From positions 274,473 to 338,472 of the forward strand of contig JAGYKL010000001.1 in assembly GCA_018401705.1 (NCBI GenBank): 64,000 nucleotides of DNA. The letters run 5' to 3'. The notes below the pieces were generated by a model, which ran no database searches, was not told the DNA's origin, and saw only the letters and a list, made by a program, of their open reading frames with translations. Position 1 is the stretch's first letter. Each line of letters begins with the position of its first letter. This document shows positions 1 through 48,500 of the stretch, piece by piece. The stretch is from Bacteroidia bacterium. GTDB lineage: Bacteria; Bacteroidota; Bacteroidia; M30B66. Made by a program: the position numbers and the translations under genes.

Positions 1-2119
1 GTTGTAGAAAGCTAAATCACTGGCTTTTAGGTGAAAGACTATAGTTTTAGTTTCACCGGGCTGCAAATGCACTCGTTGAAACCCTTTTAATTCTTTGACT
101 GGTCGGGTGATGCTGCCAACTTGATCGCGAATATAAAGCTGTGCTATTTCTACCGCTTCGCGGGATCCGGAATTAGTTAGTTCGGCAAAGACTTCAATTG
201 AACCGTCTACAGGCATTTCATGTGAAGAAAGTCGCAGGTGATGGTAATGAAAATGCGTGTACGTTAATCCGAAGCCAAATGGATAAAGTGGTTCAAAACC
301 AGCGTCTAGGTGAAAAGAAGTATTTCCGGTTGATGTTTGTCCCGCCCTGGTGGGGATGTGGTCTATATAGGTAAACGTTTCGTAGGTAGCCGGTTTTCCT
401 GAGTTTCGATGGTTGTAATAGATTGGTATTTGACCTACCATTCTTGGAAAAGAAACCGGTAATTTACCTGAAGGCGCAACTTTACCGAAAAGGATATCAG
501 AAATTGCCGGACCACCCATTGTTCCGGGATGCCAGGCAAAAATCATAGAATTTACGTAATGTTGAGTTTGCTCAAGCGTGAGGGGCCTCCCTGCTAAAAT
601 AACAAGGATTGTTTGCTTTCCAAGCTTTGATATTTCTTCGAGCAATTCGTTTTGAACACCCGGCAAGTCAATATCAGCGCGGCAATGAGCTTCGCCGGAA
701 AGAATAGATTCCTCGCCCATGAACATAATAATGGTTTCTGATTCTGCTGCAATGGCAAGGGCTTCGGCAAATCCATCTCTGTTTTTAGTACGGCTGGTTT
801 CCAGGCCACGAGCATATCTTATATTTACGTCATCACCTAGTTCCTTACGAATTGCTTGCAAAGGAGTTTGACACCACTCAGCTTTCCCGTCGAAAACCCA
901 AGTGCCCATTTGTTCATGTTTATCATCGGCCAGAGGCCCGATAACAGCAACATTCTTTAAATTTTCCTTCTTTAAGGGCAGAACCTGATGATCATTCTTT
1001 AGCAAAACACAACTTTGAATGGCAGCTTCCTTGGCAGCAGCCAAGTGATTATTATTTCCTTTTTCAGGGAAAGAGCTTGCATTTGTGTAGGGTTTTTCGA
1101 ACAGACCTAAGTCATATTTCACCGAAAGAATATGTTTAACTGAAGAGTTAATGTCTTCTTCATTCACTTTACCTTCTTCAATAAGTTCCTCAAGATGAGC
1201 TAAGTATGTATGACTTGCCATTTCCATATCCACCCCGGCGTTGGCTGCATGCATGGCGGCTTCGCGATCGTGTTCTGCAAAACCGTGAGTTATGAGTTGG
1301 ATAACAGAATCCCAATCGCTTACTACGAATCCTTTGTAATTCCATTCATCGCGCAAAACCTTGCGTAAGAGAAAATCATTGGCTGTTGAAGGCACACCAT
1401 TTATATCGCTAAATGCCGACATAAACGTTGCCACACCTGCATCTGCACAAGCCTTAAAGGGAGGAAATGCAACATTCCTAAGCTCTGATTCAGAGATATT
1501 TACATAAGCATAATCTCTTCCGGCTTCTGAATAACCATATCCGGCGAAGTGCTTTGCACAAGCTGCGATATGACCTTCTTTAGACAGATCATCGCCCTGA
1601 AAACCTTCAACCATAGCCACTCCAAGCTTGGAAGCTAAATACGGATCTTCGCCCAACGATTCGGCAATTCTTCCCCAGCGAGCATCGCGGGTAACATCAA
1701 TCATCGGAGCGAAAGTCCAGTTAACCCCATCAGAAGCTGCCTCAACAGCAGCCACTCTTGCACCTTCTCTAATTATGCTTGGGTTCCAGCTAGCTGCTTG
1801 TCCCAGCGGAATTGGAAATACCGTTTGATATCCATGAATCACATCACGACCTATAATTAGCGGAATGCCCAATCGGCTCTCTTCAACCGCAATACGCTGT
1901 ATTTCATTTAATAAATCTACACCTACTTCATTGAGAATTGAACCTACTTTGCCATGTCTGATATCATCAGCTAGGTCGTGTGGAATACCACCTCTACCGG
2001 CAAACTGCGACATCTGCCCAATCTTTTCTGCCAAGGTCATTTTGCCCAGCAACTCATTCACAAATTCGTCCTTATTTATCACTTCCTTAGTGGTTCTTGA
2101 GTATTTTTTTCTCTGACAT
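1..2119 (-). CDS. Glycoside hydrolase family 3 beta-glucosidase (3' end beyond window)
   Basis: Predicted exo-acting beta-glucosidase that would release glucose from the beta-glucan oligosaccharides made by the GH16 enzyme encoded upstream. Visible in the translation: the GH3 start region KMTLAEKIGQM, the KHFAGYG motif, and GFVVSDWDSV holding the nucleophile Asp (codon near 1317). The second alpha/beta domain follows, then the start of a fibronectin III-like domain that runs off the left edge. About 700 residues are present, so only some tens are missing. No signal peptide is seen. The natural ATG at 2119 (MSEKK) is one base out of frame because of an A7 run (2104-2110); dropping one A joins it to the GH3 frame. 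Otherwise GTG at 2082 would start translation. It is the last visible gene of the minus-strand operon from 4408. Family assignment is firm; the linkage specificity is inferred from the neighbours. Confidence 0.9.
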
Positions 2120-2204
2120 TTCAATTCAATTTTCTAGCCTTGGGGATGAAATAAAAGCCTGTACAGGTTTAATTATGAGCCTTTATTTGGTTGTTTGGTA
2201 TATG

Positions 2205-3527
2205 TTAATGATTTACAATTAGCTTTCCTTGACTTGAATTACCATCCACTGAAAGTGAATAGAAATACAGACCGTTGGATAAAGCTTGAGTAGATATTTG
2301 AATCTGGTTCAATCCTGTATTTGCGTTTACTCTTGAGCTTTGCACGTTGCGACCTTGAACATCAACAATATTAAGCACTACCGGAGCTGAATAATTCAAG
2401 TCGAATGAGAGCGTAGAAATTTCATTCGCAGGGTTTGGAAAAAGACTTAGTGAATTAAAAGCACTTAAATCATTGGTTGAAACAGGCTCTCCAAACTGGA
2501 AATTATCAAAATAAAACTGACCTGAAGTAAAAGTTTCAGGATCTTTAAGAATTACAAATTGTGAGATATCAGTAGATTCAAATACTGATGAAACATCGAA
2601 AGTAAGTGTTTGCCAAGTTGCACTTGTAGATGTAGCCTGATCAACAGCAATGATTACATCATTATTGGCATTTTGTAAAGACAAACGGTATGTCGAAGGC
2701 GCTGCGGGATCCCAAATATCTATGGAAATAGTGCTTCCTTCTTCAAGAGCAAGGTTGCCATCAAAGAGACCAATGAGTACGTCAAATTCTTCTCCACCAT
2801 TTCTGGTGTATGTTGCTACATAATCAGAGGTGTTTCCCGTTTGGTCAGGATTTGGAACTCTTCTAAAGTTGATTCCAGAGTGAGAGAAAATAAAATCTAC
2901 ACTCTGATTGCATTCAAAATCATTAAATACATCAGCATTAGCTGTTACGCCATCACAAGGGTCAGAAGCTAATTCAGGTCCGTTAATATTGTCAAAATAA
3001 TAGGTATCACCAGTATTTGAATTCGGATTGAACAATAATACAAGATGATCAACATTATCGTTGGCCACAGAAGCATCAGGTTGTTCAACAAAATTAAATG
3101 TAAGAGTTTCCCATGCATTAGCTACAGAAGTTACAGCAGTATAAACACTATGCCTTCCGGTTGGGTAGTTAGCAGGTAAAGCAAGCGTGCTATTCTCCAG
3201 AGTTATTTGAACTGTTACACCAGCATTCGGGCTCCAAACATCAATACTAATTTGCTTAGCTCCTGATACATAATCAGAAAGATCTGCCATTGGGGCTTCA
3301 AGAATTAATACATCAAATGTTTCAGAAGCATTTCTAGAATATTGCCCGGCTACATTACTTGTATTTACTCCAGATTTATCAGGATTTTCAAAGTAAGGAA
3401 TGAAGGTACCATTTATAAATCCGTAATCATTCTTGCGGATATCTTGAAAGTTATCCCAAATCTGCTGAGCAGAGATGCTTCCAGATATAAGGAATAGTAA
3501 AATGAATAATGAGTAGTTATTTTTCAT
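2205..3527 (-). CDS. Secreted two-domain glycan-binding-like protein with T9SS type A tail
   Basis: 440 residues with a clean signal peptide (cleavage near SISAQQ). Two related beta-sandwich-like domains follow, at about residues 22-190 and 195-350. Each starts with a D/N-F motif and ends with a YYFDNI / FYFDNF signature typical of galactose-binding-fold carbohydrate-binding modules. The C-terminal ~80 residues (SLFPNPANE ... GLYFYSL ... GKLIVNH) are a T9SS type A sorting domain, so the protein should be exported and attached to the cell surface. No catalytic motif is seen. It lies 20 bp downstream of the GH16 gene and upstream of GH3 in one operon, so a role in holding beta-glucan at the surface is a reasonable inference. 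Domain family and ligand are not proven by sequence alone. Confidence 0.8.
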   Translation of the reverse strand: MKNNYSLFILLFLISGSISAQQIWDNFQDIRKNDYGFINGTFIPYFENPDKSGVNTSNVAGQYSRNASETFDVLILEAPMADLSDYVSGAKQISIDVWSPNAGVTVQITLENSTLALPANYPTGRHSVYTAVTSVANAWETLTFNFVEQPDASVANDNVDHLVLLFNPNSNTGDTYYFDNINGPELASDPCDGVTANADVFNDFECNQSVDFIFSHSGINFRRVPNPDQTGNTSDYVATYTRNGGEEFDVLIGLFDGNLALEEGSTISIDIWDPAAPSTYRLSLQNANNDVIIAVDQATSTSATWQTLTFDVSSVFESTDISQFVILKDPETFTSGQFYFDNFQFGEPVSTNDLSAFNSLSLFPNPANEISTLSFDLNYSAPVVLNIVDVQGRNVQSSRVNANTGLNQIQISTQALSNGLYFYSLSVDGNSSQGKLIVNH

Positions 3528-3547: not shown

Positions 3548-4408
3548 TTATTTTTTCTCGTAAACGCGAACGTAATCAATGAAGAAGTTCTGCGGAAATG
3601 TTGTGGTATTATCTGGATTACCCGGTAGATTGCCACCCACAGCCAGATTTAAAATCATGTGAAAATCCTGATCAAAAGGCCAGGTTGTGGGCAAAGTTGT
3701 AGAACGTGTATTGGGCTTCCCTATATCGATCCCATCCATTTGAAATTGAATACACTCTTCATTCCAAAGCACTGAAAACACGTGAAAGTCATCGGCAAAA
3801 GTGCCTTGCTCGAGTTCTATATCTTGCGAGGTATACCTCCAGAAATCATGTCCATAATGAATGGTACCGAATACTTTGTTTGGCTCACTTCCAATGTATT
3901 CCATGATGTCAATTTCTCCACTCTTTGGCCATCTACCATACACTGTGTCGGTTGGAAGCATCCAGATTGCAGGCCAAATACCTTGCCCGATAGGCATTTT
4001 TGCGCGAATCTCCATACGGCCATATTTCCAGTCGCCTTTATTCTTAGTGACTAAGCGGGCGGAAGTATATTGATGTTGACCTAAATAAAGTGGATTTTCT
4101 CTTCTTGCTTTAATTATGAGATTGCCATTTGAGATATAAGCATTCTCAGGGCGAGAAGTATAATACTGTAATTCATTATTGCCCCATCCGCATAAGTCAG
4201 GACTAATATCACAGCCATTGCCTAAGTCAAAAGACCATTTAGAATCATCAATAGTTTCTGAATCAAATTCATCTTGCCAAACTTGCGTGTATTCTTCAAT
4301 GGATGCAGGAAATCCACATCCTCCCAATTCTTCAGGTTTTTTACACGAAGTCGCAAAAAAAGCAAATAAGCCAAAAAGGACAATACTTAAATCTCTAGCT
4401 CTACTCAT
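3548..4408 (-). CDS. GH16 endo-beta-1,3-glucanase (laminarinase-like) lipoprotein
   Basis: 286 residues from ATG 4408. An upstream ATG at 4441 would put 11 extra residues before the signal peptide and lies within about 10 bp of the promoter, so 4408 is preferred. The lipoprotein signal ends in FFATSC with Cys22 as the predicted lipid anchor. The catalytic domain carries SGEIDIMEYIG, the GH16 E-x-D-x-x-E signature: Glu165 nucleophile and Glu170 acid/base. Other GH16 hallmarks are WQDEFD near the N-terminus, GIWPAIWMLP and FHMILNLAVGG. It should cut beta-1,3 (or mixed-linkage) glucan at the cell surface. It is the first gene of the operon GH16, binding protein, GH3, driven by the promoter at 4446-4453 with the GATGTA repeat cluster upstream. 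Length and motifs are normal for the family; exact substrate is inferred. Confidence 0.92.
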   Translation of the reverse strand: MSRARDLSIVLFGLFAFFATSCKKPEELGGCGFPASIEEYTQVWQDEFDSETIDDSKWSFDLGNGCDISPDLCGWGNNELQYYTSRPENAYISNGNLIIKARRENPLYLGQHQYTSARLVTKNKGDWKYGRMEIRAKMPIGQGIWPAIWMLPTDTVYGRWPKSGEIDIMEYIGSEPNKVFGTIHYGHDFWRYTSQDIELEQGTFADDFHVFSVLWNEECIQFQMDGIDIGKPNTRSTTLPTTWPFDQDFHMILNLAVGGNLPGNPDNTTTFPQNFFIDYVRVYEKK

Positions 4409-4445
4409 TTTTTTGTTATTGTATTTTTTACACAAAGGCAATAGT

Positions 4446-4453
4446 CAAATGTA
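4446..4453 (-). promoter_or_regulatory. -7 promoter element TACATTTG of the GH16 operon
   Basis: On the minus strand the octamer TACATTTG matches the Bacteroidota -7 consensus TAnnTTTG exactly. It lies 37 bp upstream of the GH16 ATG (4408) and 33 bp downstream of the last GATGTA repeat. No good -33 TTTG is placed at the usual distance, which fits an activator-dependent promoter. Transcription start would be near 4440. Confidence 0.65.
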
Positions 4454-4486
4454 ACAAATACGTTGGGTTAATACTTGTGTAAAACA

Positions 4487-4535
4487 TACATCTTGTTTAC
4501 ATCAAGCATAATTTTTCCTACATCATAAATACATC
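4487..4535 (-). promoter_or_regulatory. Four-site GATGTA operator upstream of the GH16 operon
   Basis: On the minus strand GATGTA occurs four times, at 4535-4530, 4524-4519, 4503-4498 and 4492-4487: two pairs with an 11-bp period separated by 15 bp. The same arrangement, in the same orientation relative to transcription, lies at 8955-9002. It is probably the binding site of the regulator encoded at 4660-7584; one-turn spacing would place all sites on one face of the helix. The repeats are read directly; the binding protein is inferred. Confidence 0.75.
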
Positions 4536-4606
4536 AAAAAAGGCAAAGTAAAATTCAAGAAAATTATAGAATACTGATTTTCTGATGTTTATTCCGACAA
4601 ATCATC

Positions 4607-4614
4607 TATATTTG
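4607..4614 (+). promoter_or_regulatory. -7 promoter element TATATTTG of the regulator gene
   Basis: Exact TAnnTTTG match 45 bp before the GTG start at 4660. It is more than 70 bp from the GATGTA cluster and faces away from it, so the regulator probably has its own, perhaps basal, promoter. Confidence 0.5.
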
Positions 4615-4659
4615 ACTACTACATTCATATATCTCTTAAGTTAAATTACTTGTTCAGGC

Positions 4660-7584
4660 GTGAAATTTCCAATCAAAACTTATTTCATAATTGCCTTAGG
4701 TTTGACTCAGATGTCATACTCTAAATCTATGGCTCAAAGCCTTTTTGCCGGTGAGCCCGACATTACTTCTTACTCAAGAACAGCCTATCAAGGGGGCACT
4801 CAAAACTGGGCTATACTTCAAGATAGTAGAGGTCTCATGTATTTTGGCAACAACAAAGGCTTGCTTGAATTTGATGGCACTCATTGGCAGCAATATCCTT
4901 TGCCCAACAGAACTATAGCGCGCTCAATGGCTCAAAAAAGCGATTCATTGTTATATGTTGGAGGCCAAAACGAGCTTGGTTTCGTAAGTTTTAATTCAAG
5001 AAATGGAGCTAGCTATAGAAGCTTAACACATTTAATACCAGAGGAAAAACGAGGTTTTGAAGATGTTTGGCAAACGTTTGTGCTTGAAAACGCCGTGTAT
5101 TTCTGCACCGAACAAATGGTTTTCAAATTCCAGGGCGAACATGTGAGCACAATCTTACCATTATCGGAGCGATTCGAAAATTTCTTTTTCTTGAGAAACC
5201 AAATCATACTTCAAGAAAAACAAAGTGGTTTGTATTCTTTAACCGAGCAAGGCCTCAAAGAATTTATGATTTCAGACCTGATTAAAGGTCAAAGAATCAT
5301 TGCCATCCTTCCCTTTCAGAATACATCGAATTTATTGATTAGTTCGAGTGGAGAAATGTTCATACAAGATGGAAACTCCATCCAAGCTTTTATTTGTGAA
5401 GCTTCTGAGTTCATCAAAACCAATCAGCCCTATTGCGCCATTAGACTCAATAATGGCCAAATAGCAATCGGCACAGCGCAAAACGGCCTTTTGCTTTGTG
5501 ACTCATCGGGTAGAATACTCAAGCATCTGAACAAGCAAAAGGGACTTCAAAACAATACAATTCTTTCAGTTTATGAAGATGCGGGGGGAAACCTGTGGAT
5601 GGGTCTCGACAATGGAATCGACAACGCTTTGATTAATTCACCTTTCTCTATAATCGATTCTCAATCAGGGATTCAAGGTACTGGATATGCCGCTCTTTAT
5701 AAAAACAACAAGCTTTATCTTGGAACCAATCAAGGCCTCTACTTCACAGATTGGAATTCTTCTGAAAGCAATAACCGAGATTTGAATTTCAGTCCTGTAA
5801 ACTCAGGGCAAGGCCAAGTTTGGAGTTTAAATAAACTTGGAGAAACAGTCTTGGTTGGAAGACACCAAGGAGCATCGTATTTAATTGACAATAAACTAGA
5901 ACCTTTATCAAATATTCCAGGTGCATGGAAATTTATACCGCTTAATTCAAAGCCCGGATTCGCTATAGAAGGCTCATATTCAGGATTCTCCATTTACAAA
6001 TCGGAAAATAATGGTCAAAGTTGGGTTTTTATTAAAAAACTGCAAGGATTTGATGAATCATCAAGAATTTTTGAAGAGGATAAATCAGGTAATATTTGGA
6101 TCTCTCATGCTTACAAGGGACTCTTTAAAATTTCACTTAGCGACGATTTAAATGAAATTAAAAACATTACCAGATTCGATACAAGCCACGGATTACCGAC
6201 AGATTTGTTCATCAATGTCTCAAAAATTAAAGATGAATTAGTGTTTTCTACACCAAAAGGAATTTTTCGATTCGATAACCTTACAAATCGATTTAAAGCT
6301 CATGATGACTTTAACGAAATATTTGGTCCCAACAGGAATGTTCATCGTCTTTTCGAAGACGAAATGGGGAATATTTGGTTTTCGATAGATAAAGAATTTG
6401 GAGTACTTAAAGTCAAAGAAGGCACAGTGCTCAATCGCATGGAAACACTTTACTTCAATCAACTGCATGAGCAAATAGTGGATGGATTTGAGCATGTTTA
6501 TGCCTTGAATGAGAAAAATATTTTCATAGGAACCGAGAAAGGGTTCATTCACTTTAACCCTTCGGCAGAAACTACTTCTAAACAACCTTTCAATCTGATT
6601 ATTAGAAGAGTATCACTCATTCATGAAGAAGATTCAGCGGTATACTATGGAGGCATAAAAGATAAATATTCTGAATATTCGGGCGATTTCGGCTATAAGG
6701 AAAATGATTTTCGTTTCACTTTTGCCGCCGCTTATTACGAAAAAGCCAGTCACACAAACTATCGTTACTTACTTGAAGGCTTTGATAAAGAATGGTCAAA
6801 CTGGTCTTCCAGAACCGAAAAAGAATTTACCAATCTTCCCGCAGGAAAATACATCTTTAAGGTTCAGGCGAGAAATTCCTATGGGGAAATAAGCAATGAA
6901 GTAAGCTATAAATTTAGAATCAGACCAGCCTGGTATGCAAGCACATACGCAAGAATATGCTACTTCATTCTCATAGTAATTTCATTGCTTACTTTAATTC
7001 AATTTATCTCACGTAGAGAAGAAAAGAAGACCATAGCCTACAAAGAAGAACAAGAAAAAAAGCTTGAGCGAAAAGAGGCGGAATTCAAAAAAGAAGTTGA
7101 AAAATCTGAGCATGAAATAACCAAAATCAGTAATGAAAAATTACAGGCTGATATCAATCACAAAAACAGTCAACTTGCCTCAGCTACCATGCATCTGGTT
7201 CAGAAAAGCGAAATCTTGATGAAAATCAAAAACGATATCGGAAATATCCAAAAAAGTGCCCCTTCAGATTTTAAAAAACAAATTGAAGCCATTTCAAGAA
7301 CCATCGATTACGACATACAGCAGGATAATAACTGGGAACAATTTGAAATGTCATTTGATCAGGTACACGAAAATTTCTTTAAAAGGCTAAGAGCTAAATA
7401 TCCGGAGCTTACACCCAAAGACCAAAAGCTATGCGCCTACTTAAGAATGAACTTAAGCACAAAAGAAATTGCTCCTCTGTTAAATATCTCTGTAAGGGGT
7501 GTTGAAATAAGCCGTTACCGGCTGAGGAAAAAGCTTGATATTGATTCAAATACCAACCTCATTGCCTTTATCATGGAAGTTTAA
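4660..7584 (+). CDS. Membrane-anchored sensor-regulator: Reg_prop propeller, Y_Y_Y domain, TM, coiled coil, LuxR-type HTH
   Basis: 974 residues from a GTG start that leads directly into a signal peptide (cleavage near SKSMAQS). Residues ~30-640 contain repeated two-component-regulator propeller blades (motifs such as LQDSRGLMYFGNNKGLLEFDG and EDAGGNLWMGLDNGID). A Y_Y_Y domain follows (YRYLLEGFDKEWSNWSS), then one transmembrane helix near 767-785, a charged coiled coil (~790-880), and a C-terminal LuxR/GerE-like HTH (YPELTPKDQKLCAYLRMNLS ... NISVRGVEISRYRLRKKL). There is no histidine kinase or receiver domain, so it looks like a one-piece sensor: glycan sensed in the periplasm, DNA bound in the cytoplasm. 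It sits between the GH operon and the barrel operon, both preceded by identical GATGTA operators. Its stop codon overlaps that of the convergent hydrolase gene within TTAA. Architecture is clear; ligand and target are inferred. Confidence 0.88.
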   Translation: MKFPIKTYFIIALGLTQMSYSKSMAQSLFAGEPDITSYSRTAYQGGTQNWAILQDSRGLMYFGNNKGLLEFDGTHWQQYPLPNRTIARSMAQKSDSLLYVGGQNELGFVSFNSRNGASYRSLTHLIPEEKRGFEDVWQTFVLENAVYFCTEQMVFKFQGEHVSTILPLSERFENFFFLRNQIILQEKQSGLYSLTEQGLKEFMISDLIKGQRIIAILPFQNTSNLLISSSGEMFIQDGNSIQAFICEASEFIKTNQPYCAIRLNNGQIAIGTAQNGLLLCDSSGRILKHLNKQKGLQNNTILSVYEDAGGNLWMGLDNGIDNALINSPFSIIDSQSGIQGTGYAALYKNNKLYLGTNQGLYFTDWNSSESNNRDLNFSPVNSGQGQVWSLNKLGETVLVGRHQGASYLIDNKLEPLSNIPGAWKFIPLNSKPGFAIEGSYSGFSIYKSENNGQSWVFIKKLQGFDESSRIFEEDKSGNIWISHAYKGLFKISLSDDLNEIKNITRFDTSHGLPTDLFINVSKIKDELVFSTPKGIFRFDNLTNRFKAHDDFNEIFGPNRNVHRLFEDEMGNIWFSIDKEFGVLKVKEGTVLNRMETLYFNQLHEQIVDGFEHVYALNEKNIFIGTEKGFIHFNPSAETTSKQPFNLIIRRVSLIHEEDSAVYYGGIKDKYSEYSGDFGYKENDFRFTFAAAYYEKASHTNYRYLLEGFDKEWSNWSSRTEKEFTNLPAGKYIFKVQARNSYGEISNEVSYKFRIRPAWYASTYARICYFILIVISLLTLIQFISRREEKKTIAYKEEQEKKLERKEAEFKKEVEKSEHEITKISNEKLQADINHKNSQLASATMHLVQKSEILMKIKNDIGNIQKSAPSDFKKQIEAISRTIDYDIQQDNNWEQFEMSFDQVHENFFKRLRAKYPELTPKDQKLCAYLRMNLSTKEIAPLLNISVRGVEISRYRLRKKLDIDSNTNLIAFIMEV

Positions 7585-8876
7585 TTCTCTAAACTACCTA
7601 CAAAGAATGGAAAATTTGCTGTACCTGCATTGCCCTTTCCATCATAGATGTAAACGAATAAACGGTAAGAACCTTCTTTTTTAGGTGCTTTGAAAATGAA
7701 TTTTCCTGTCCCTGAGTCTTCAATAACATCAATATTAACCGGCTCAGGCTTGGATTCTGCATCACCACCAGATTTTATATCTCTACTTTCAGGTAGTAAT
7801 TCCCATCTCATTGTTAACAGGTCTAAATCGGGTTCTGTTACATCATAGGCAAATTCACAAATCTTACCCGGCTTAACAAAAACACTCTCAACCGGCTTCT
7901 TCCCATTCATTGTAATTGAATTAATATGAGGAGAGCGATTTGATGGTGCTTTTCCACTCCAGGCCTCTTCAAGAACATCCATTACTTCTGTTTCAGTGCC
8001 ATCTTCCAAAAATACTCCATACCAGGTTGGCGTTGTTTCCTGCTTTTGTCCCCATAAGAAAACATAAGAGCCCAAGCACATCTGTGGATCAATTTTAATC
8101 CCTTTTTCATAGCGCTCACGATACTTATCGGCCTTCTCGCTACTGGTTTGCTCAATAGGAACTCCCCATGACGTTTTTGGCACTTCCCAGTGGCCATCAG
8201 GCCCCCACTCGGTAATAATGTATGGCTTATTCCAGCCGAAGGCTCTAATCTCTTTGTCAATCCCAATCAAGGCACCGTAAGTGTTAATACCAAAGATGTC
8301 AATGTGAGGAGCTCTTTCCTTCACCAGCTGAATCTCAGCTACATCCAAGCCTGCCGTAACTGTCATGGTTGGGTGATTCGGATCAACTTCATGAATCATC
8401 TTGGCTATATCATTGATTGCATTCCACACTTTAAAATCAGAATAAAACAAGTCAGTTTCATTACCAACACCCCACATAAGAAGGGCAGGATGATCTTTAT
8501 AGGTTTTTACTACCTCTGTAAATCTCTCCAATTGCGCTTTAACGCCTTTTGTATCGTCATAGTCAAAGCCTTGTCGCTCACATCCAACCCAAAGTCCAAA
8601 AAGCACTGTTAAGCCTTTTGAATGTGCCTCATCTAAAATATTAATGGCTTCACTGGCTCCCCAGGTTCTCACCGAATTAGCTCCATAGGCAACAGCTCTG
8701 TCGAGGTACTTCTGTCCGCCTACTCCATTAATATAATACGGTTCACCTCCTCGATATAATTTCCAGTTTCCGTTTTCTTCTTTAAGCTCAACCTTTATAA
8801 CTCCATCTTGGGCTTGTGATTTTGTGATGTGAACAACTGAAATCAAAATCAGAATTGTTACAATGATACCTCTCAT
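7581..8876 (-). CDS. Secreted clan GH-A glycoside hydrolase (TIM barrel, GH2/GH5-like)
   Basis: 431 residues with a signal peptide (cleavage near KSQAQ). A (beta/alpha)8 catalytic domain spans about 40-310. Clan GH-A landmarks are visible: NSVRTWG near the barrel start, WGVGNE with predicted acid/base Glu140 after strand 4, and IITEWG with predicted nucleophile Glu223 after strand 7. A C-terminal Ig-like domain (~315-431) follows the barrel. There is no T9SS tail or lipobox, so it is probably periplasmic. It is convergent with the regulator gene and divergent from the barrel operon, sharing the GATGTA-containing intergenic region. It likely acts on beta-glucan or oligosaccharides from it. The exact family (GH2, GH5 or a newer beta-1,3-glucanase family) cannot be fixed by eye. 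Confidence 0.8.
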   Translation of the reverse strand: MRGIIVTILILISVVHITKSQAQDGVIKVELKEENGNWKLYRGGEPYYINGVGGQKYLDRAVAYGANSVRTWGASEAINILDEAHSKGLTVLFGLWVGCERQGFDYDDTKGVKAQLERFTEVVKTYKDHPALLMWGVGNETDLFYSDFKVWNAINDIAKMIHEVDPNHPTMTVTAGLDVAEIQLVKERAPHIDIFGINTYGALIGIDKEIRAFGWNKPYIITEWGPDGHWEVPKTSWGVPIEQTSSEKADKYRERYEKGIKIDPQMCLGSYVFLWGQKQETTPTWYGVFLEDGTETEVMDVLEEAWSGKAPSNRSPHINSITMNGKKPVESVFVKPGKICEFAYDVTEPDLDLLTMRWELLPESRDIKSGGDAESKPEPVNIDVIEDSGTGKFIFKAPKKEGSYRLFVYIYDGKGNAGTANFPFFVGSLEN

Positions 8877-8954
8877 GTGATGTGGAATTGTGCTGTTAAT
8901 TAATGCTGAAAATTAACAATAAATAAGGGATTTAGCGATTGAGAAAAGCTCAAT

Positions 8955-9002
8955 GATGTAGCTATGATGTATTCAAATTTGCAAAGATGTAAGCTTGATG
9001 TA
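8955..9002 (+). promoter_or_regulatory. Four-site GATGTA operator upstream of the beta-barrel operon
   Basis: GATGTA occurs at 8955-8960, 8966-8971, 8986-8991 and 8997-9002: two 11-bp-period pairs separated by 14 bp. This mirrors the cluster at 4487-4535 in order, orientation and distance to the -7 box (33 bp in both). It could also affect the divergent hydrolase gene starting at 8876, though no clear -7 box is seen on that side. Confidence 0.75.
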
Positions 9003-9035
9003 TTAAAAAATAGAGTCAATGGTGTTGGGATAACA

Positions 9036-9043
9036 TAAATTTG
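9036..9043 (+). promoter_or_regulatory. -7 promoter element TAAATTTG of the beta-barrel operon
   Basis: Exact TAnnTTTG match, 33 bp after the last GATGTA site and 24 bp before the ATG at 9068. No well placed -33 element is seen, as at the GH16 promoter. Transcription start would be near 9050. Confidence 0.65.
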
Positions 9044-9067: not shown

Positions 9068-11143
9068 ATGAAACAAACCTACTTGTCAATTAGTTCCCTT
9101 CTCTTCTGTAAAGTTTCGCAATTCTCATCTAAAGCCTTGCGGAGCTTGACTTTGGCACTTGTGTTTATTTGGTGTAATAATTACACCGCAAATGCTCAAT
9201 TAATAAAGGGTTCTTTAACAAATAATCAAAGACTTCTTGAAACACAAGATTTTTCGTCGGTGGTACAAGGTATCCAGTACGACTCAGCTTTTGTTGCAAA
9301 GCAGTTGCGCAAAAACGATCAGAAGCTAAGCATTTTCGGTTATTACAGGCTTTTTGCCTACGGCAGAAATATTACTGAGGCTTATCCCGATTTGAGTCCC
9401 TATGAAAGAGGTTATGGCATAGGCGATGGTTATAGAGAACCTATGATGGCTATGACTATAGTTGGTCGCCCAAACGGAAAAACTAGTTTCGGAACTGAGA
9501 TTTTCATGTTTACTCCCTATGATGGTGAGTTTGCAGCAAATAATGTCCTTTCAACTACGCTTGGCTTAAATTTCTATGGTAATTTCAGAACTAAAGATGG
9601 AAACTTTGGTGTTCGGGCCGGTGGTATACATTGGTATAATTTAAGCCCAATGACCATTGGGGTATTCCAAATCCTTGATCGCTTCAGTATTTTCGATAGA
9701 ACACCCTGGGAAGGCGTTAATAATACATCTAAGTATGATAGCTATTTTAAATCTGGTGCTGTTAACCCTGGAGATTTACGTTGGAACTTTCAAGCTTTCC
9801 AAGGCTTAATTATTAATGGAGCTAAATTACCTCACGATTTTGCATTTGACTTATTTTGGGGTAAAACTCAGCCTAACGGCGGATTACCAAACGCTTTAAC
9901 AGACCCCTACCAATCTATTCCTACAACTTTAGAGTATGGCGAAGTGCCAAACTATATTGGCATGGGCGGAACTTCAAGAGTTATTCCCAGCACCATTGCT
10001 GGAGGCAAATTAGCCAAAACATTTGGTCCCGATCAACAGCTGCTAGCTTATAACGTTATTCATAACTCAACTGCATTAGACAGCATCCACAAAGACCTTA
10101 GAACATATACTGTTCATTCTCTTTCTCTAGGACTCAACTTTGGAAAAATTAAACTCAGTGGCGAGTTGGGAGCCGGAAATTATGAAAGCCCAACCTATGC
10201 AAAAAAATGGGGCGAAGCTCTTATGCTCCGTCTAATGGTTCCTAACGATGTGCTCCCTTTGCCTTTTGATTTGCAGGTATATCAAATTAGCAAAAACTTC
10301 TTCAATCAAAACAGTGAAATCTTTACCAATTCTAATCCTGATATTTTACGTGATATTGGATTAGTTGCAGGAGCAATTGGAACAGGAGGTCAAATTACAG
10401 TGGTAAATCAGCTTGTCCACAATAGAAGAGGCTTAAACCTCAACACAGGTGTTGAAATACAGGATTTCAAGTTTAATGTTGGCTGGGGAATTTCGGCCGA
10501 ATTGGAAGCTACTGCCGGTCAACTTAGTTATGTTCACCGTGTTAACGGATTAGCTCTCTCTAGAATTTATAATCCTTTCCCGGCTAATGCAACCGCTCCA
10601 ACTGTATTTGACCCTTATGGCAGAAAAATTTCATTTTTCAGAGGTGTTTCAGAAGTAGTTCAAACAACAGATTTGAATCCCGCGACAGCGGAGCCTCTAT
10701 ATAGAAAGTACTTTAGTGCTGTTGATGTTCAGGCTAAATACAAATTGAACTTGAATGGTCGTCCACTGTACCTTTTCTATCTGGGTTCTTTCGGCTCTGC
10801 TGATGCAAACCTTGCTGCATTGCCCCTGATGAATGAAAGTACTTATCTTTTTGTTCAGTACAACGAGTTTGATTTGTATTACGAAGTCCTTCCAAAATTT
10901 ATTCTTACTGGTTATTACGGAATCGAAAACGCCCGCGGAGGCAGATATACTGATTGGGATTCAGACACCAATAAGCCGCGCGATCAATTAGGAACTGGCA
11001 TTGGAGCCGGCTTTGACTGGAAGTGGGCCGAAAATTCAGGACTATACTTCAGACATCGGTGGATGCAATTTGAAGACAGGAGCTTTAGCCTCGATAAATT
11101 TAAAGGGAGAGAATTCACAATCGAAATCAAAACATTTTTCTAA
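9068..11143 (+). CDS. Predicted outer-membrane beta-barrel protein, 691 aa, unrecognised family
   Basis: A long basic N-terminus leads into a hydrophobic segment and a signal cleavage near YTANAQ. The rest is rich in alternating aromatic/polar strands with Tyr/Gly turns and ends in Phe (EFTIEIKTFF), the usual end of an outer-membrane barrel. No SusC plug or TonB box, SusD-like fold or hydrolase motif is seen. The central part holds repeated strand-turn motifs such as FRTKDGNFGVRAGGIHWYN. It is the first gene of the operon 9068-15163 and has the same operator layout as the GH16 operon, so it is expected to be made with the glucan enzymes. It may form a pore or surface scaffold for oligosaccharide uptake. 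Function is an inference from context and topology only. Confidence 0.7.
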   Translation: MKQTYLSISSLLFCKVSQFSSKALRSLTLALVFIWCNNYTANAQLIKGSLTNNQRLLETQDFSSVVQGIQYDSAFVAKQLRKNDQKLSIFGYYRLFAYGRNITEAYPDLSPYERGYGIGDGYREPMMAMTIVGRPNGKTSFGTEIFMFTPYDGEFAANNVLSTTLGLNFYGNFRTKDGNFGVRAGGIHWYNLSPMTIGVFQILDRFSIFDRTPWEGVNNTSKYDSYFKSGAVNPGDLRWNFQAFQGLIINGAKLPHDFAFDLFWGKTQPNGGLPNALTDPYQSIPTTLEYGEVPNYIGMGGTSRVIPSTIAGGKLAKTFGPDQQLLAYNVIHNSTALDSIHKDLRTYTVHSLSLGLNFGKIKLSGELGAGNYESPTYAKKWGEALMLRLMVPNDVLPLPFDLQVYQISKNFFNQNSEIFTNSNPDILRDIGLVAGAIGTGGQITVVNQLVHNRRGLNLNTGVEIQDFKFNVGWGISAELEATAGQLSYVHRVNGLALSRIYNPFPANATAPTVFDPYGRKISFFRGVSEVVQTTDLNPATAEPLYRKYFSAVDVQAKYKLNLNGRPLYLFYLGSFGSADANLAALPLMNESTYLFVQYNEFDLYYEVLPKFILTGYYGIENARGGRYTDWDSDTNKPRDQLGTGIGAGFDWKWAENSGLYFRHRWMQFEDRSFSLDKFKGREFTIEIKTFF

Positions 11144-11154
11144 TCAAGCCAACA

Positions 11155-12942
11155 ATGAAGAACTATTTACATAAAACTCTTGCAAGCATCTGTCTTACAG
11201 CGTTACCGTTTGGTTTTCTGCTTGCGCAGGATGGCTCCGCTTTCGCAACCGAAAAAGAAAAGGACGAAAAGAAAGTTCGTTTTAATGGCTTAGGCAGATC
11301 GATTCTTTCACAAAACACCATTACCGGCGATATTCTCGACGCCGACACTAATACCGTTAGAAGAATTACCGATGGTGAGTTTCTGCTTGATGTGGCTATA
11401 AATGCAACGCCTAACAAGAAAACAGAAGTTCAATCAATTCTTCGCCTCCGAAATGAGTTTGGTGGCTTCTATGGAGCAGGCGTTACCGTTGAAGTGCGTG
11501 AACTTTGGGCAAGAGGAATCATTGCCGACAAGATTCGTTACCGTGTTGGTGATATGGATGTGGCAATGACTCCATACACATTCTTTAATCCGAACGAAGA
11601 AGGTACTGTTAATGAAGCAGCCGCTTTTATTCCTTTCAAGGATGTAATCAATTACGAGCAGTTCTACACCAATAACAACACTCGAAGGGTTCAGGGTGCT
11701 CAAATGGATTTCGGGCTGAACTTCAGTAAAATCCTCGATGAAATGGATTTTAAAGCCTTTATTGCAAGAGTTAGAGGCACCGATTTCTTTACCGTTCCAA
11801 CACGATTCACCAGTGGCGGTCAATTAAACTTTAGCACCGAGAAGTTTAGCGACACCCTTGGCACAATGGCTCGCTTCGGGATTAATGCAGCACATACTTT
11901 TGATGATTTACAGTCGGGTGAGGCTACAGCGGGCATCAGAAATTCGGTTGTTTCATTCAACTTCGATGTTACTATTTTCAACAAAAAGAAATCAAGCCTT
12001 AACCTGATTGGAGAAACCGGAAAGTCCTTCTTAACCAGCAAAAGAGATTCTATTACTCTTTCTCAAGAGGATGATTCCTTCTTGGATATTGGGCTTAAAT
12101 TTAAACTTAAACCGCAACAGCTTGAATTCATGGCTTCCTTTATAGATGTAGGCCCCGATTTCTTTAGCATTGGAGCTCAAAGTAAACGAGTTGATTTTGC
12201 TGCAAATAAAACTTACTACAACAGAATTGGTGTTGATGAAATGCTTAGAACACCTTCTATTTTTGATTTAAGTCGCGATAGAGCACTATACACATTTCGC
12301 TTATCAGATCAGTTAATGGCATATGATCCACGCTTTAGCAATACTATGCCTTACGGCACTGCCACTCCTAACCGTCGTGGGATAAATTTATCTGTAGGTT
12401 ATGGCAATCCCAACGGTGTTTTGGAAGCAGAGTTAAAAGCGTCTCTCTTGAACGAAATCAGAGGTCAGGGCACGTTCGAATTGAAAAACTTTACGCTTGT
12501 GAGAGCTTCAGCTAATTTCAATGCTCATAAATTACTCAATTGGGAAAATAAACTGCGCCTAACGGCGGGATATCAATATGAGCAAACCACACGTGGTGGT
12601 ATTGATGTTGAAGTTCTCGATTTACAATCTAACCTCATTGAAGCAGGTATCGAAATTGAAATATTCAAAGACTTTGAACTGCTTTTCGGAACTAAAATCC
12701 TTTCAGCAAAAGGCAATGAGTTCATTCCTTTGTATGGAGAATTCAACAATATTCAGGATTTCCCAGCGCCTTATATCGTTGATGATACCGAAACTCTTTT
12801 AGCAACAGGTATCAGATACAACTTCAAAAAAGGAATCTATCTCACCATTCAATACCAAACGTTTAATTCGCAAAGAGGTCAGAATAATCCGAATAACTAC
12901 GGATTCAATCAGCTCTTCGCCGTTTACAACATGAATTTCTAA
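11155..12942 (+). CDS. Second predicted outer-membrane beta-barrel protein, 595 aa
   Basis: It starts 11 bp after the preceding barrel gene, so the two are almost certainly cotranscribed. A signal peptide ends near FGFLLAQ. A short charged linker rich in Lys/Glu follows (about residues 31-42), then amphipathic beta strands through to a C-terminal NMNF. Strand-like stretches such as LLDVAINATPNKKTEVQSIL and LETANFNAH-type segments alternate with Gly/Asn turns. No known enzymatic motif or TonB box was recognised. A plausible role is partner of the 691-residue barrel in a glycan import or display complex that stands in for SusC/SusD. Confidence that it is an outer-membrane barrel is moderate; its function is unknown. 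Confidence 0.65.
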   Translation: MKNYLHKTLASICLTALPFGFLLAQDGSAFATEKEKDEKKVRFNGLGRSILSQNTITGDILDADTNTVRRITDGEFLLDVAINATPNKKTEVQSILRLRNEFGGFYGAGVTVEVRELWARGIIADKIRYRVGDMDVAMTPYTFFNPNEEGTVNEAAAFIPFKDVINYEQFYTNNNTRRVQGAQMDFGLNFSKILDEMDFKAFIARVRGTDFFTVPTRFTSGGQLNFSTEKFSDTLGTMARFGINAAHTFDDLQSGEATAGIRNSVVSFNFDVTIFNKKKSSLNLIGETGKSFLTSKRDSITLSQEDDSFLDIGLKFKLKPQQLEFMASFIDVGPDFFSIGAQSKRVDFAANKTYYNRIGVDEMLRTPSIFDLSRDRALYTFRLSDQLMAYDPRFSNTMPYGTATPNRRGINLSVGYGNPNGVLEAELKASLLNEIRGQGTFELKNFTLVRASANFNAHKLLNWENKLRLTAGYQYEQTTRGGIDVEVLDLQSNLIEAGIEIEIFKDFELLFGTKILSAKGNEFIPLYGEFNNIQDFPAPYIVDDTETLLATGIRYNFKKGIYLTIQYQTFNSQRGQNNPNNYGFNQLFAVYNMNF

Positions 12943-42571: not shown

Positions 42572-45500
42572 TTACCAAACAAACTTCCTTGTTATACTTC
42601 CATCTTCTGAATATACTCTCAAGAAGTAAACTCCTGACGCCAATTCATTAGCACTCAAATTATGTATTGAGCCTGATGATTGACTCATTGTCTCAGACAG
42701 AATCATTCTACCATAAGCGTCAATCAATTCAACATGCAGATGTAAATTATCTGTGTTCAATGAGAAGTTAATTTGCTTTGAAGCTTTATTTGCTGTGAAA
42801 TACTCAAGATTAAATGAACTATTTCTACTAGCGTCAACAGCTACCCAATCACCTTTTGAAACATCTCCATTAAAGTCATACTGACTTAAACGATAGTAAT
42901 TAATGCCTTTGAAAGGCTTAAGGTCTATTTGTGAATACGATAAGATAGAATTACTGTTTCCTGCTCCGCTCACTTTTTCAAGTACTTCAATGTCGACAAG
43001 ATTAATACTTTTCTCAACAACAAAATAATCATTGTTTATCTCTGAAGCTGTAGTCCATGATAAGTTTACTACTTCATTTTTATAATCAGCACTAAAATTG
43101 AGAAGCTCAATAGGCAGAGGAGAACCATCGCCTAATCCTGTGAATTCGCTAAAGGTAGTTAGCCCACTCCAGTTGAGTGTTTTAGCTCCCGTGTTTACAG
43201 AACCTGTTCCCATGATTGCACCAACGGCCGGGCTTCCTCCTGCACCAATCCAACCACCTGCATTCCATTTGAAGGGGTACAATGTTGATTCAACACCTAC
43301 AACGTCTACTGCATCATAAGATAAATCAACATTGTAAGTTGGATCAGTAATACCTGTAGGCTCAACTGTCCAATATCTATTTAAATAAGTAGTAGCAGTT
43401 CCTATGTTAGGGTGCGGAATAGCTGCCACTGAAGCATCCAAATATGGATTAAGAGTAGCTGAAGCGCCAGTTAAATTAACAGTAACAGGCGAATAATAAT
43501 TCTCATCTCCAATTGGGAAGAAATAAGAACCAAAGCTATTTGTATACCTTCTTAACAATCCGTTTGGTGCATTACTTAACCAGCTAATAACATAGCTACT
43601 GGTGCTTCCTCCAGTAATGTTTCCGTTAGTAGAAGGGTTTCCAATTAGTAGATTGTTCCCATTTAAATCAACTAAGCCTGAATTAAGAGTAAGGTTTGCG
43701 TTAACTTCTATAGAATACTCAAGAATAACCTTAGCAGTTGAAGTTGTTTTTAAAAGATATAAGTTACCAAACGCTGTTGGCAAGGCATCTCCTGTTGTCA
43801 TATCGCTGGCACCCACAAAACCATAAGAGGCTGTTGAAGGAAAAGTTCTCGTACCTGAGATTCTGATATTTCCATCAGAAGTTGTTGTTCCAGTTAAGTT
43901 TAGACCATCTGCTGAACCATAAAGGAAACCTGAACCAGCCGTTAATGTGAAGTTACCTGTTCCACTGATATTATCGAATGCATCTAGTCTAAGTACTGCT
44001 GGACTATTAACTGTTAATGTTCCTGTAATATCAAAACTAGCTGCGGCATCTACATTACCAGCAGTTGCAGGAGCCGAATAATTAGAAAGCAGTGCATTAA
44101 TTTCGATGTTAGCGTAACTAATACCTCCTCTTATTAATTGTTGTTGAGTATTATTAGTTCCATACCATTCGATAATGCCTCCTGTGAGGTTGTAAGGCGT
44201 AGAAACAGCACTTAATTCAGGTAAAGAAGTGTTTAGTTTTGCCATTCTCAAACGACCATTATCCATTGTAAGACCAGCGTTTCCTGTCATTCCTTTATTT
44301 TCTAAATCGAAAACAGCAGTTCCGGTTATGCTAACATTATTTTCAACTACAATGTTTGAAGTAATAGTTTTAGCATCTGTCAGGTAAGTATTAGCTCCAG
44401 TAACTGAGAGGTTGTAGTATGAAGGAACCGCACCCGCAAGTACCTGATTTCCGGCTGCATTGAGTTCTATTGTACCACCTGTTAATGAATAACTTCCATA
44501 ATCCGATAAAAGAGGAACAGTTCCGGTGTTTGTTTGAATTCTGTATAAACCACCTGTCATTGTAATTTTTCCTGAACCAAAGAAATCGGCAGCATTGGTG
44601 CCAACAACAGTGCCCTGAATAATGCGTAAACCATTACCTGTATTACTTAAACCTATATTGCCCGTGGATGTATATAAAGAACCATTATAACCTTCAAATA
44701 GAAGATTAGTAGTTAAAGCATCTAATTCAACCACAATCTCCTTATTAGAACTGGCAGTTGGCACTCCATCGCCAATACGTTGATTGGGAGCCAAACCTAC
44801 ATAATGATAGATACCTGAAACACTAAACGCTCTTGTGTCGGTAACAACATTACCTTCATTAGCAGTGCCGGCATCAATTCCATTAGGATGAGTTATTTTA
44901 ATTCTACCGAAAGGATTTAAGTTAAAGCTTGTATTAGTTGCTCCTCCAGCAACTTCAACTACTCTAAGCGCAGTAGTTCCATTAAAGCCAAAATCAAATA
45001 CTCCATTTTGAGCAACAATTACTGCACTTTGAGTATTTAATTCGAGGTTTTGATTTATGATTCTTACATAAGCTCCATCCAAAACTTCATAAGTAAGGTT
45101 TGTGTATCTGTTGGTTAGAGATGAAGCACAATCAATTGTTTGAGTTGTTGCAGGTGTTAGACCATCGCCCACACCATTAAAATTAAAGAAACCACGATTT
45201 GTTCCGTTTCCATTGGTGCTTCTAAACTGAGCGCCGGAAGTAACAGTTAAGTCTCCTTTAAGATTAACCTGAGTTTCTACAGAATTGGATGTTACTGTTG
45301 AATTAAAGTCAAAGTTTGCATCTCCTAAAATGTTTAGATTACCCAAGATATTCATGTATGAATAGGATCCAGCTTGACTACCAGCCATTACTCTAAAAAC
45401 CCCACTATTTAGATTAGCATCTCCATTTACTGTTAGCACAAGAGAGCCCCCCGTCTTCAATTGAATGGTGCCTAAAGAAGGAAAACCTGATTCAATAATA

Positions 45501-48500
45501 AAATCACCACCTATAGTCGCAGTTAGTGCTCCAAAAGTTGATAATCTTAGAGTTTGGCCAACATCAATCGATCTGAATATCATGTCGTTGTGCGTCAAGT
45601 TTGCAATAGAACCTACTGCTTCTGCAATTGTCCATGTTGCCATAGTGCTAGCACCACTGGCTAGGTCAAAGATTACATTACCAAAGTATGCAGAGAACCC
45701 ACTATATGTGCTTGTGCTTAATGCTGCTGCAGCAAAATTGAATAGGAAGTCATTATTATCAAAATGATAAATAATCAGGTTTGACTCGGGTGCAAAGTTT
45801 TCAGTGCCATTCCAAATTGAAGTAGAAGGATTTCCAAATGCGAAATTGATGATAAGATTTCCACCATCTTCCACGTTAAGGTCGCCACCAGAAGCAATGC
45901 TTAAATTAGCATTCACCTGAAATGTACCACCATTCTGAATAGTTAATGATGCACAAGTAGAAGAAGAAGCATTGGTGATGTATCCTCCGTTCTCTACAAT
46001 CATAATCACAGAATTACCGAAACTGCCAACCGTATTAATTGTATGTCGGATGTATACTACATCTGATGTGTTGGTTGCAGGAGGAGCACTTACTGCCCAA
46101 GAACCCGAAAACTGCTCCCAAGTGGCTGTATTTGTAGTACCCCAAGATCCTGAACTTGTAGTTCTGTAACTGCCGGGAGCAATGTTAGAAATATTAAATG
46201 GATTACTAATTCCTGTGGTTTGACCCGGAGAAGTGGCTGTTAGGTTAAGTGGACCGCCAACAGCAGTATGATTTATAGTGTTGAAAACGGCTAAGCCTGA
46301 AGGTCCTGTTGCTGTTGCAATTTGTGGACTAGAAGATAATGTTCCGGAAGAAGTAATATCAACAGTTCCTGTGAAATCTAAATCCTGATTTCCGTTCGCA
46401 TCAACAGAGCCAACTGTAACTGCTGGCATGTTTGAACTTTGAACAAAAGAAATTGGCTGTGTAAAGAAGGCCAATTCTGTTCCTGTTACTTGTATACTAT
46501 TATTGTTGCCTGCAACAGATGAAGAGATAGCAGTAAAGTTGGTAAACAACGAAGACGTAGAGAAGGCTGCTGCTGCAACATCTGCATTCAATATAGTGAA
46601 TTGCATTTGCTGATTATCAACTATCGGCGACAGGTTAAATGTTACTCTTAGAGTAAGATTTCGTGTTGAATTATGAGGGCAAGAGTAAGATAAGCCAGAG
46701 AAAGCAATTGTGCCAGCTCCTGCATTTACTGTTGAAGCATTTGAAACCAAAGAGTTGCCATCAAACAGCGCAGCTGTTCTAATTCCATCAATGCCTACAA
46801 CACTAGAGAATGTAATTGATTCAAGAATTGTTGGCAAGCCATCTAAATCATTAACTCCACCACCATCGCGAATTGTAAATCTCCAAACTCCAATTGAGCC
46901 TCCAGCTCCAGAGCCTGTGTTTGTAATTAATGCACTTTGATATGTTGTGTAGTCAATGTTACTAGAGTATGAATACGTGCCATCATTAATGATGTCTGAA
47001 AGTGTGGCTGGTTCGACCAATGTAGTGGCATTTGCACCTGGAATAGTTGCAGCTGTTCTATAGTTATATGTTAATGGTTGAGAACCATTCCAGTTGAATG
47101 GAATGAGGGTGAAATAATATTGTGTAGTTGCAGAAAGACCTGTTATACTAGCACTTGTAGCTGCTGAACTTGTAATAATTGCAGCAACGGTAGCATCACC
47201 AATTGTAGCTCCAACTGTATATGAAGAAGCATCAGCCGGCAGCCCAGTTGGCGCTGCTCCTGTGCGTCGCAGGATGATGTAACCATCAGCATTTGCAATT
47301 AAATTCGCAGCATTAAAGGCAAGATCTATTTGATTGTAAGCAACTGCTGTTGCAGTGAATGAAGCAGAATGCCCTGCCGGTTCATTACTTAAGGTCCAAA
47401 ATGTATGAGAGGAAGGACCTGGCAAATTATAACATTCACCCACACTAGCATAAGAATAAGCGGTTGCAGTGTATTGTGTTTCTGGATTTAAACCTGTTAA
47501 ACCCGAAACCGAACTTCCCGAGTTACGGAACATCGCACGATTGTCGGTATTAAGCTGAGCTGCAAAGCCGTAATCAGTGTTTGCTGCATAAGCATTGCCA
47601 CTAATTGGTGCAACCAAGCCAGCTGCATTTGGACGAACGGTAACTAAAGTACCATCGCTTCCTCCACCAGGCGTCCACCCTAGGTCAATTCCATCGCTTG
47701 TTGGATTGGATGAGTTAAGTCCGGCAACTTGTCCGGCGGGAGCCGTGCATCCTGCATAAACTGTGTAGGACATGTCGTCAAAGTTGACTCTATTACCTCC
47801 ACCACTGGTTTTCACAATACGTATTCTAACTGGAGCCGGTAAGCTAAGCGTGAAGCTTTGTGCAGTAAGTGTTGTAGATGAGGTTGTGATTGTTCCTCCA
47901 AACTGTGTCCAAGAACCACCACCATTTGTTGACGCTTCAAGAATCCAGTCTGAATTGCCATCTGTGCCATAAGCAGCGTGTAAAACGGTAAATTGTTCAA
48001 TCCCACCAACGGTGATATCAAAGTCCATTTCCACCTTACCGGTGTTACGAACTCTTGCTGATGTTGTACCGTTTTTTCTATCATTAGCCAGGGAACCTAA
48101 AATAACATCATCTAAAATCCAATCACCCGCAGTGCAGGTAACTGTAGCAATTGCATAAGCTCCTTTTGTACCTGTTTCAAAATCTTCCCAAGGTGCTGGA
48201 ATTGTAGCACATGTTGTTTGTGGCTCAGAACCTAATTTGTAATTGATGTTAGCTCCAGAATTGGTGTAAGACCAAATCTTAAAGTAGTATGTTGTATTGG
48301 CAGTTAGTCCGGTAACAGTGAAAGCACCTGTGCCTTGAGCTACATTCTGAACGCCTGCACCGTTCGCCTCTGCAACCAAATCGCTAGGTGCGGCAATACT
48401 TCCGTAACCGCCTGAACTCCATTTAATTAAATAGCCTGTTGGTGCTTGACCTGCTGAAGCATCAGTCCAGCTAAGCGGAATTGTAGTTGTGGTAGTTACG

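Follow-up and report, generated by a model that had tools for sequence, protein, structure and literature searches.

A GATGTA direct repeat, the probable operator of a membrane-bound Reg_prop/LuxR-type regulator, recurs in distant Bacteroidota

Two operons that flank a single regulator gene in a Bacteroidia genome are each preceded by the same short repeats, which raises the question of what reads these repeats and to what effect. The window (the whole stretch of DNA analysed, 64,000 nucleotides in length) carries four copies of GATGTA upstream of each operon, arranged as two pairs and followed by a promoter box. The features concerned are listed below, with the pairs termed operators in the predicted sense argued for in what follows.

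1 to 2124, minus strand: GH3 glycosidase, probable third gene of the GH16 operon, running to the window edge
2205 to 3527, minus strand: P0004, secreted, with a T9SS sorting tail, in the GH16 operon
3548 to 4408, minus strand: GH16 beta-glucanase gene; translation more likely begins at 4408, where the first ATG lies, and the leader is then about 33 nt long
4453 to 4446, minus strand: sigma-A-type -7 box TACATTTG of the GH16 operon; predicted transcription start at about 4441
4487 to 4503, minus strand: proximal operator pair of the GH16 operon, with sites at 4503-4498 and 4492-4487; 33 bp separate it from the -7 box
4519 to 4535, minus strand: distal operator pair of the GH16 operon, GATGTA-N5-GATGTA (sites 4535-4530 and 4524-4519)
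4660 to 7584, plus strand: regulator P0001, 974 aa, with a Reg_prop propeller, Y_Y_Y, one transmembrane segment, a coiled coil and a C-terminal GerE domain
7581 to 8876, minus strand: GH2-type TIM-barrel glycosidase, a neighbour kept in loci L087, L088 and L116
8955 to 8971, plus strand: distal operator pair of the barrel operon (GATGTA starts at 8955 and 8966)
8986 to 9002, plus strand: proximal operator pair of the barrel operon (GATGTA starts at 8986 and 8997), 33 bp before the -7 box
9036 to 9043, plus strand: -7 box TAAATTTG of the barrel operon; predicted transcription start at about 9048, leader of about 20 nt
9068 to 11143, plus strand: P0002, 691 aa, without a named family, first gene of the barrel operon
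11155 to 12942, plus strand: P0003, 595 aa, a probable outer-membrane barrel, adjoining P0002

On re-reading, the eight GATGTA sites and the two TAnnTTTG boxes were all found at the positions and on the strands given in the initial annotation, and the layout that it had described for both operons (site-N5-site-N14/15-site-N5-site) was borne out. Upstream of the GH16 operon the spacing is N5-N15-N5 and upstream of the barrel operon N5-N14-N5, each followed by 33 bp and then a perfect TAnnTTTG. Transcription starts were placed on the basis of Flavobacterium, in which the -7 box occupies positions -12 to -5 (PMC9723704). The listed open reading frame of the GH16 gene begins at a TTG at 4441. P0002 and P0003 (9068-12942) are conserved as a pair, look like outer-membrane proteins and belong to no named Pfam or NCBIfam family; a P0002 homologue is present in 43 of 390 genomes of the class. 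Elsewhere in the window, 42572-52396 holds one minus-strand open reading frame of 3274 codons.

Repeats shared by two regions of one genome could have arisen by chance, or as a mobile duplication copied from one intergenic region to the other. The regions were said from the outset to differ outside the sites, and they do: spacers and flanks are unlike, and the repeats are therefore not a copied segment. With one mismatch allowed, shuffling predicts 0.28 pairs in the window against the four observed, and the whole 3.74-Mb genome contains no exact GATGTA-N5-GATGTA pair other than these four. When 395 genomes of the class were searched for the full four-site pattern (spacer 4-34), two had it, with two copies here and one in G365, against 0 control matches, and a search of a plasmid collection with the intergenic region gave no match. 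Chance or copying is further contradicted by the unrelated genomes of several families that carry the repeats, as well as by the de novo hexamer result and the fixed box distance described below, and its probability is negligible.

The gene between the two operons encodes P0001, whose Reg_prop repeats and subsequent Y_Y_Y domain score 52.1 and 49.5 bits, above the Pfam cut-offs, and whose C-terminal GerE domain (NarL/LuxR-type, residues 917-969) scores 25.0 bits against a curated cut-off of 23.5. Hydrophobic stretches lie at the N terminus and near residue 770, the latter preceding a charged stretch that resembles a coiled coil. Solved HTCS sensor domains of Bacteroides (3v9f, 4a2l) are relatives of the periplasmic part, and the cytoplasmic part is modelled (pLDDT 92) as a long helix followed by a NarL/LuxR-type four-helix domain. 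The NarL, LiaR, VraR, and DosR domains superpose on this model with a target TM of about 0.7-0.77 and an rmsd of 1.6-2.5 Å, at weak Foldseek E-values of only 0.15-0.5. P0001 shares its helix-turn-helix fold (Pfam GerE; structural matches) with the NarL/FixJ response regulators, which are usually soluble and phosphorylated and bind inverted half-sites.

Among the 395 class genomes, 56 carry a homologue of P0001 at E below 1e-120. Sequence flanking about 70 homologues was retrieved from Bacteroidota, and the 600 bp upstream of 72 were scanned. In these sequences, GATGTA pairs with at most one mismatch are concentrated at period 11 (17 vs 0.6 expected), with none at period 10 and one at period 12. 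A de novo search for repeated hexamers over all periods from 7 to 23 placed GATGTA at period 11, on the strand facing the divergent gene, at the top with 10 loci, the best unrelated hexamer reaching 3. Refinement over 29 aligned pairs yielded the consensus wTGATGTAGTnnTGATGTAGT, in which positions outside the searched hexamers are also conserved (the T before the site in 25 of 29). With a position weight matrix partly built from the same sites that it then scored, 22 regulators (window included) reach at least 14 upstream, all on the facing strand, and the rest stay at or below about 7, leaving a clear gap; none of the 22 scores was matched in 60 shuffles each. To these 22 is added the L087 regulator, whose operator lies 1.5 kb away, before the P0002 orthologue. 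Among the close homologues in G397, G398, and G399, a near pair is present only in G399 (the G398 contig ends at the gene), and no good operator was found beside the regulator in the close relatives L094, L240/G398, and L241/G397.

Searches beyond these flanks gave a similar distribution. The pattern GATGTAGTNNNGATGTA has 17 matches in 80 genomes, all of them in the 60 that carry homologues and none in the other 20; for 10 of them a fetched regulator is no more than 10 kb away, and 3 more adjoin a shorter paralogue. Across 395 genomes, an exact pair with TAnnTTTG at 24-44 bp occurs six times vs two in a reversed-pattern control, which is fair for patterns that include the promoter box. It is unfair for the bare pair, since reversing GATGTA gives ATGTAG, which occurs within the real site GATGTAG. 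The six distances are 33 and 33 (here), 32 (G365), 32 (G322), 26, and 42, and three of the four matches at 32-33 bp adjoin the regulator; the fourth genome, G365, also encodes the regulator, in two pieces on short contigs. The proposed co-occurrence of the repeats with homologues of the 4660-7584 protein is upheld by the period spectrum, the de novo hexamers, and the class-wide and unseeded searches alike.

The repeats are likewise conserved upstream of orthologous barrel genes: all four P0002 orthologues that are at least 50% identical, including those of G010, G092, and G365, carry the operator. Operons holding P0004 and GH16 homologues are also headed by the repeats. The refuting outcome named in the initial annotation, absence of the repeats before orthologous GH16 or barrel genes, was looked for and did not arise. 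L087 and L088 share with the window a pair placed before P0002/P0003 orthologues, and in L089, L109, and L137 the pair precedes operons headed by a P0004 homologue as the first gene after the operator (a weak relative is found in L086), with a sodium symporter and P0002/P0003 homologues. P0003 adjoins P0002 in L087, L088, L089, L109, and L137. No pair lies directly upstream of the distant P0002 homologues (28-37% identical) in any of the 26 loci examined; several of these homologues sit in P0004-homologue-headed operons with the pair at the operon head. Large operons with SusC/SusD-type or glycosidase genes follow the pair in L090, L113, L114, and L129, three of which have a GH16 homologue nearby. 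In L129, an identical pair, GATGTAGTAGAGATGTA, stands before two operons of one locus (9698-9714 and 4345-4361), an arrangement that repeats the two-operon layout of the window. Pseudoflavitalea rhizosphaerae (L024), a culturable relative, shows the layout as well. The theme common to the targets is glucan use, and the exact ligand considered below is inferred.

The distance from repeats to promoter is nearly invariant. Among 24 operators, a box with at least five of the six fixed letters of TAnnTTTG starts 32 bp (10 operators) or 33 bp (4 operators) after the last pair; any other offset is seen at most once, none of 2000 shuffles reaches the 32-33 peak in any bin, and 10 of the 24 have no recognisable box at 32-33 bp. 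Operators outside this set have a perfect box at 33 bp in L107 and at 32 bp in L133, a 5/6-match box at 32 bp in L096, and no box at that distance in L112, L118, L119, and L128. The fixed 33 bp of the initial annotation therefore holds for both window operons and not as a rule, homologous operators having 32-33 bp. Similarly, the four-site operator exists at both window operons, and the unit is a single pair of which the double form is a variant; four sites as a rule are ruled out by the many loci with one pair and a box at 32-33 bp.

If the -7 box spans -12 to -5, the end of the last pair falls near -45. In every boxed operator the sites stop short of the -33 region on its upstream side (the last pair ending at about -45) and keep a fixed helical phase, such an upstream location being the usual position of an activator. 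P0001 might still bind the sites as a repressor: upstream repressor sites that act with looping exist, and the sequence offers no direct counter to this. SusR, of the class that P0001 resembles, is nevertheless an activator (PMC3878776), and together with the position of the sites this makes repression very unlikely. The missing -33 had also been taken as a sign of an activator. It is true that neither window operon has a good -33, but the argument carries little weight because most of the remaining candidate promoters in these loci have none either: of 105 further intergenic TAnnTTTG boxes from the fetched loci, only 14% are accompanied by a TTG at spacing 18-21, and 2 of 14 operator promoters have TTTG at spacing 19-21.

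When the DNA-binding domain is left out of the regulator tree, every operator falls in the same half (23 of 38 rows vs 0 of 33, midpoint root). Within that half, an operator accompanies 20 of the 21 regulators with the recognition helix RGVEI[SG]RYR and 3 of the 17 with other helices. Once kinship is allowed for, the test has 7-8 independent pairs; about 4-5 agree on helix and operator and about 0 are opposite (median p 0.06-0.125), so that the link between helix and operator is suggestive, with too few pairs for significance. Paralogues within G120 and within G322 also differ, one regulator in each genome having an upstream operator and one lacking it. These observations bear on the proposal that the operator belongs to an unlinked transcription factor of glucan loci, with its linkage to P0001 merely reflecting shared gene clusters. 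In its favour, the targets are often glycan genes, and the way in which loci were collected biases any linkage test seeded with P0001 homologues. However, the targets are diverse (GH16, SusC/SusD, MFS and SSF transporters, GH5, aldo-keto reductase) while the regulator is constant, the operator tracks the clade and recognition helix of the regulator and distinguishes the paralogues, and the class-wide search, made without a regulator seed, still falls beside the regulator. An unlinked factor is hence improbable, to about the same degree as a repressor.

The preferred reading is that the repeats are the operator of the adjacent P0001, acting as an activator, with binding and activation both predicted from sequence (probability about 0.87). 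The 4660-7584 protein had been named as the candidate regulator of both operons, and linkage, orthologous targets, and the kept distance of 32-33 bp support this. The periplasmic propeller would sense a glucan oligosaccharide, a ligand suggested because of the GH16, GH3, and GH2-type neighbours. Two NarL/LuxR-type domains, paired by the cytoplasmic coiled coil, would then bind TGATGTAGT half-sites 11 bp apart, the predicted target of the C-terminal domain being TGATGTAGTnnTGATGTAGT. Binding is envisaged as head-to-tail on one helix face, with the bound region ending about 45 bp before the transcription start. Since half-sites are 11 bp apart and pairs 31-34 bp apart (about three turns), all four sites lie on the same face, and in the double form the second pair upstream may hold a second dimer that strengthens binding. 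From about -45, P0001 would contact RNA polymerase at the TAnnTTTG promoter and switch on both flanking operons; the head-to-tail dimer and the polymerase contact are the simplest reading, drawn from the position of the sites. This candidate operator recurs beside relatives of the same membrane-bound sensor in distant Bacteroidota of several families.

Known systems resemble this arrangement in part. SusR-like regulators (SusR, SusR2-4) share with P0001 a membrane protein with a periplasmic glycan sensor and a cytoplasmic DNA-binding domain, linkage to glycan operons, and direct repeats. SusR, however, activates through motifs of two boxes 67 or 77 bp apart (PMC3878776), a spacing unlike the 11 bp between half-sites and 31-34 bp between pairs seen here. 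The SusR DNA-binding domain was reported to have no similarity to known ones (PMC3878776), and by this published description P0001, whose domain is GerE, is set apart from SusR. The HTCS of Bacteroides share the Reg_prop/Y_Y_Y periplasmic sensor and direct-repeat operators, with repeats about 21 bp apart (PMC3878776). They differ from P0001 in having histidine kinase, receiver, and AraC-type domains, none of which was found in P0001 by Pfam scan.

MalT and the SARP-LAL/LuxR activators act at target promoters with direct, not inverted, repeats near -35, and in SARP-LAL proteins the SARP domain may read the repeats. Both differ from P0001 in being soluble and ATPase-type, with unrelated sensor parts and a different sequence. 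Direct repeats are described for SARP-LAL activators (PMC5930380). Operators made of direct repeats are already known for LuxR-type activators elsewhere. No published operator for the Reg_prop/Y_Y_Y-GerE class was found among openly licensed papers, and the operator of this regulator class appears to have gone undescribed before.

Variant elements accompany other members of the family. Beside RRYR-group regulators (helix RG[VI]EIRRYRLRKK), a related element seen by eye, TGATGTATTAATGTAGAG, is conserved downstream of the regulator in L093, L095, L100, L102, L108, L110, and L111, and TACTACATCATTACCTCTCAT stands just after the regulator stop in most of these. L106 and L117 belong to group f10, in which the regulator helix is nearly the same; there, GTAGTA/TGTAGT repeats of period 11 replace GATGTA upstream of the regulator. 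In L103 (7094-7110, plus strand), L268 (7216), L269 (7887), and L270 (7542), an exact pair separates a Reg_prop-GerE regulator from the SusC-type operon downstream of it; operon and regulator point in the same direction, and the operator is oriented opposite to the operon. No -7 box was found at 32-33 bp from the L103 operator. The L103/L268-L270 and RRYR-type elements suggest further architectures. For regulator subgroups with other helices, the de novo search gave no strong exact hexamer repeat as an operator.

A broader proposal, to which we give somewhat less than even odds, is that all Reg_prop/Y_Y_Y-GerE regulators of Bacteroidota use one readable operator code. The code would comprise head-to-tail TGTAGT-based half-sites with a period of about one helical turn, 32-33 bp from a sigma-A -7 box, and its site sequence would shift with the recognition helix, as may be the case for TGATGTATTAATGTAGAG beside RRYRLRKK regulators. 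LuxR genes of this kind head many laminarin clusters (PMC13188888). A site of fixed geometry would make targets assignable from sequence alone, and would provide a ready promoter part with which to probe how, in Bacteroidota, a NarL-type protein tethered to the membrane gains access to DNA and polymerase. If the class-wide code is true, the targets of these regulators would be readable from genomes.
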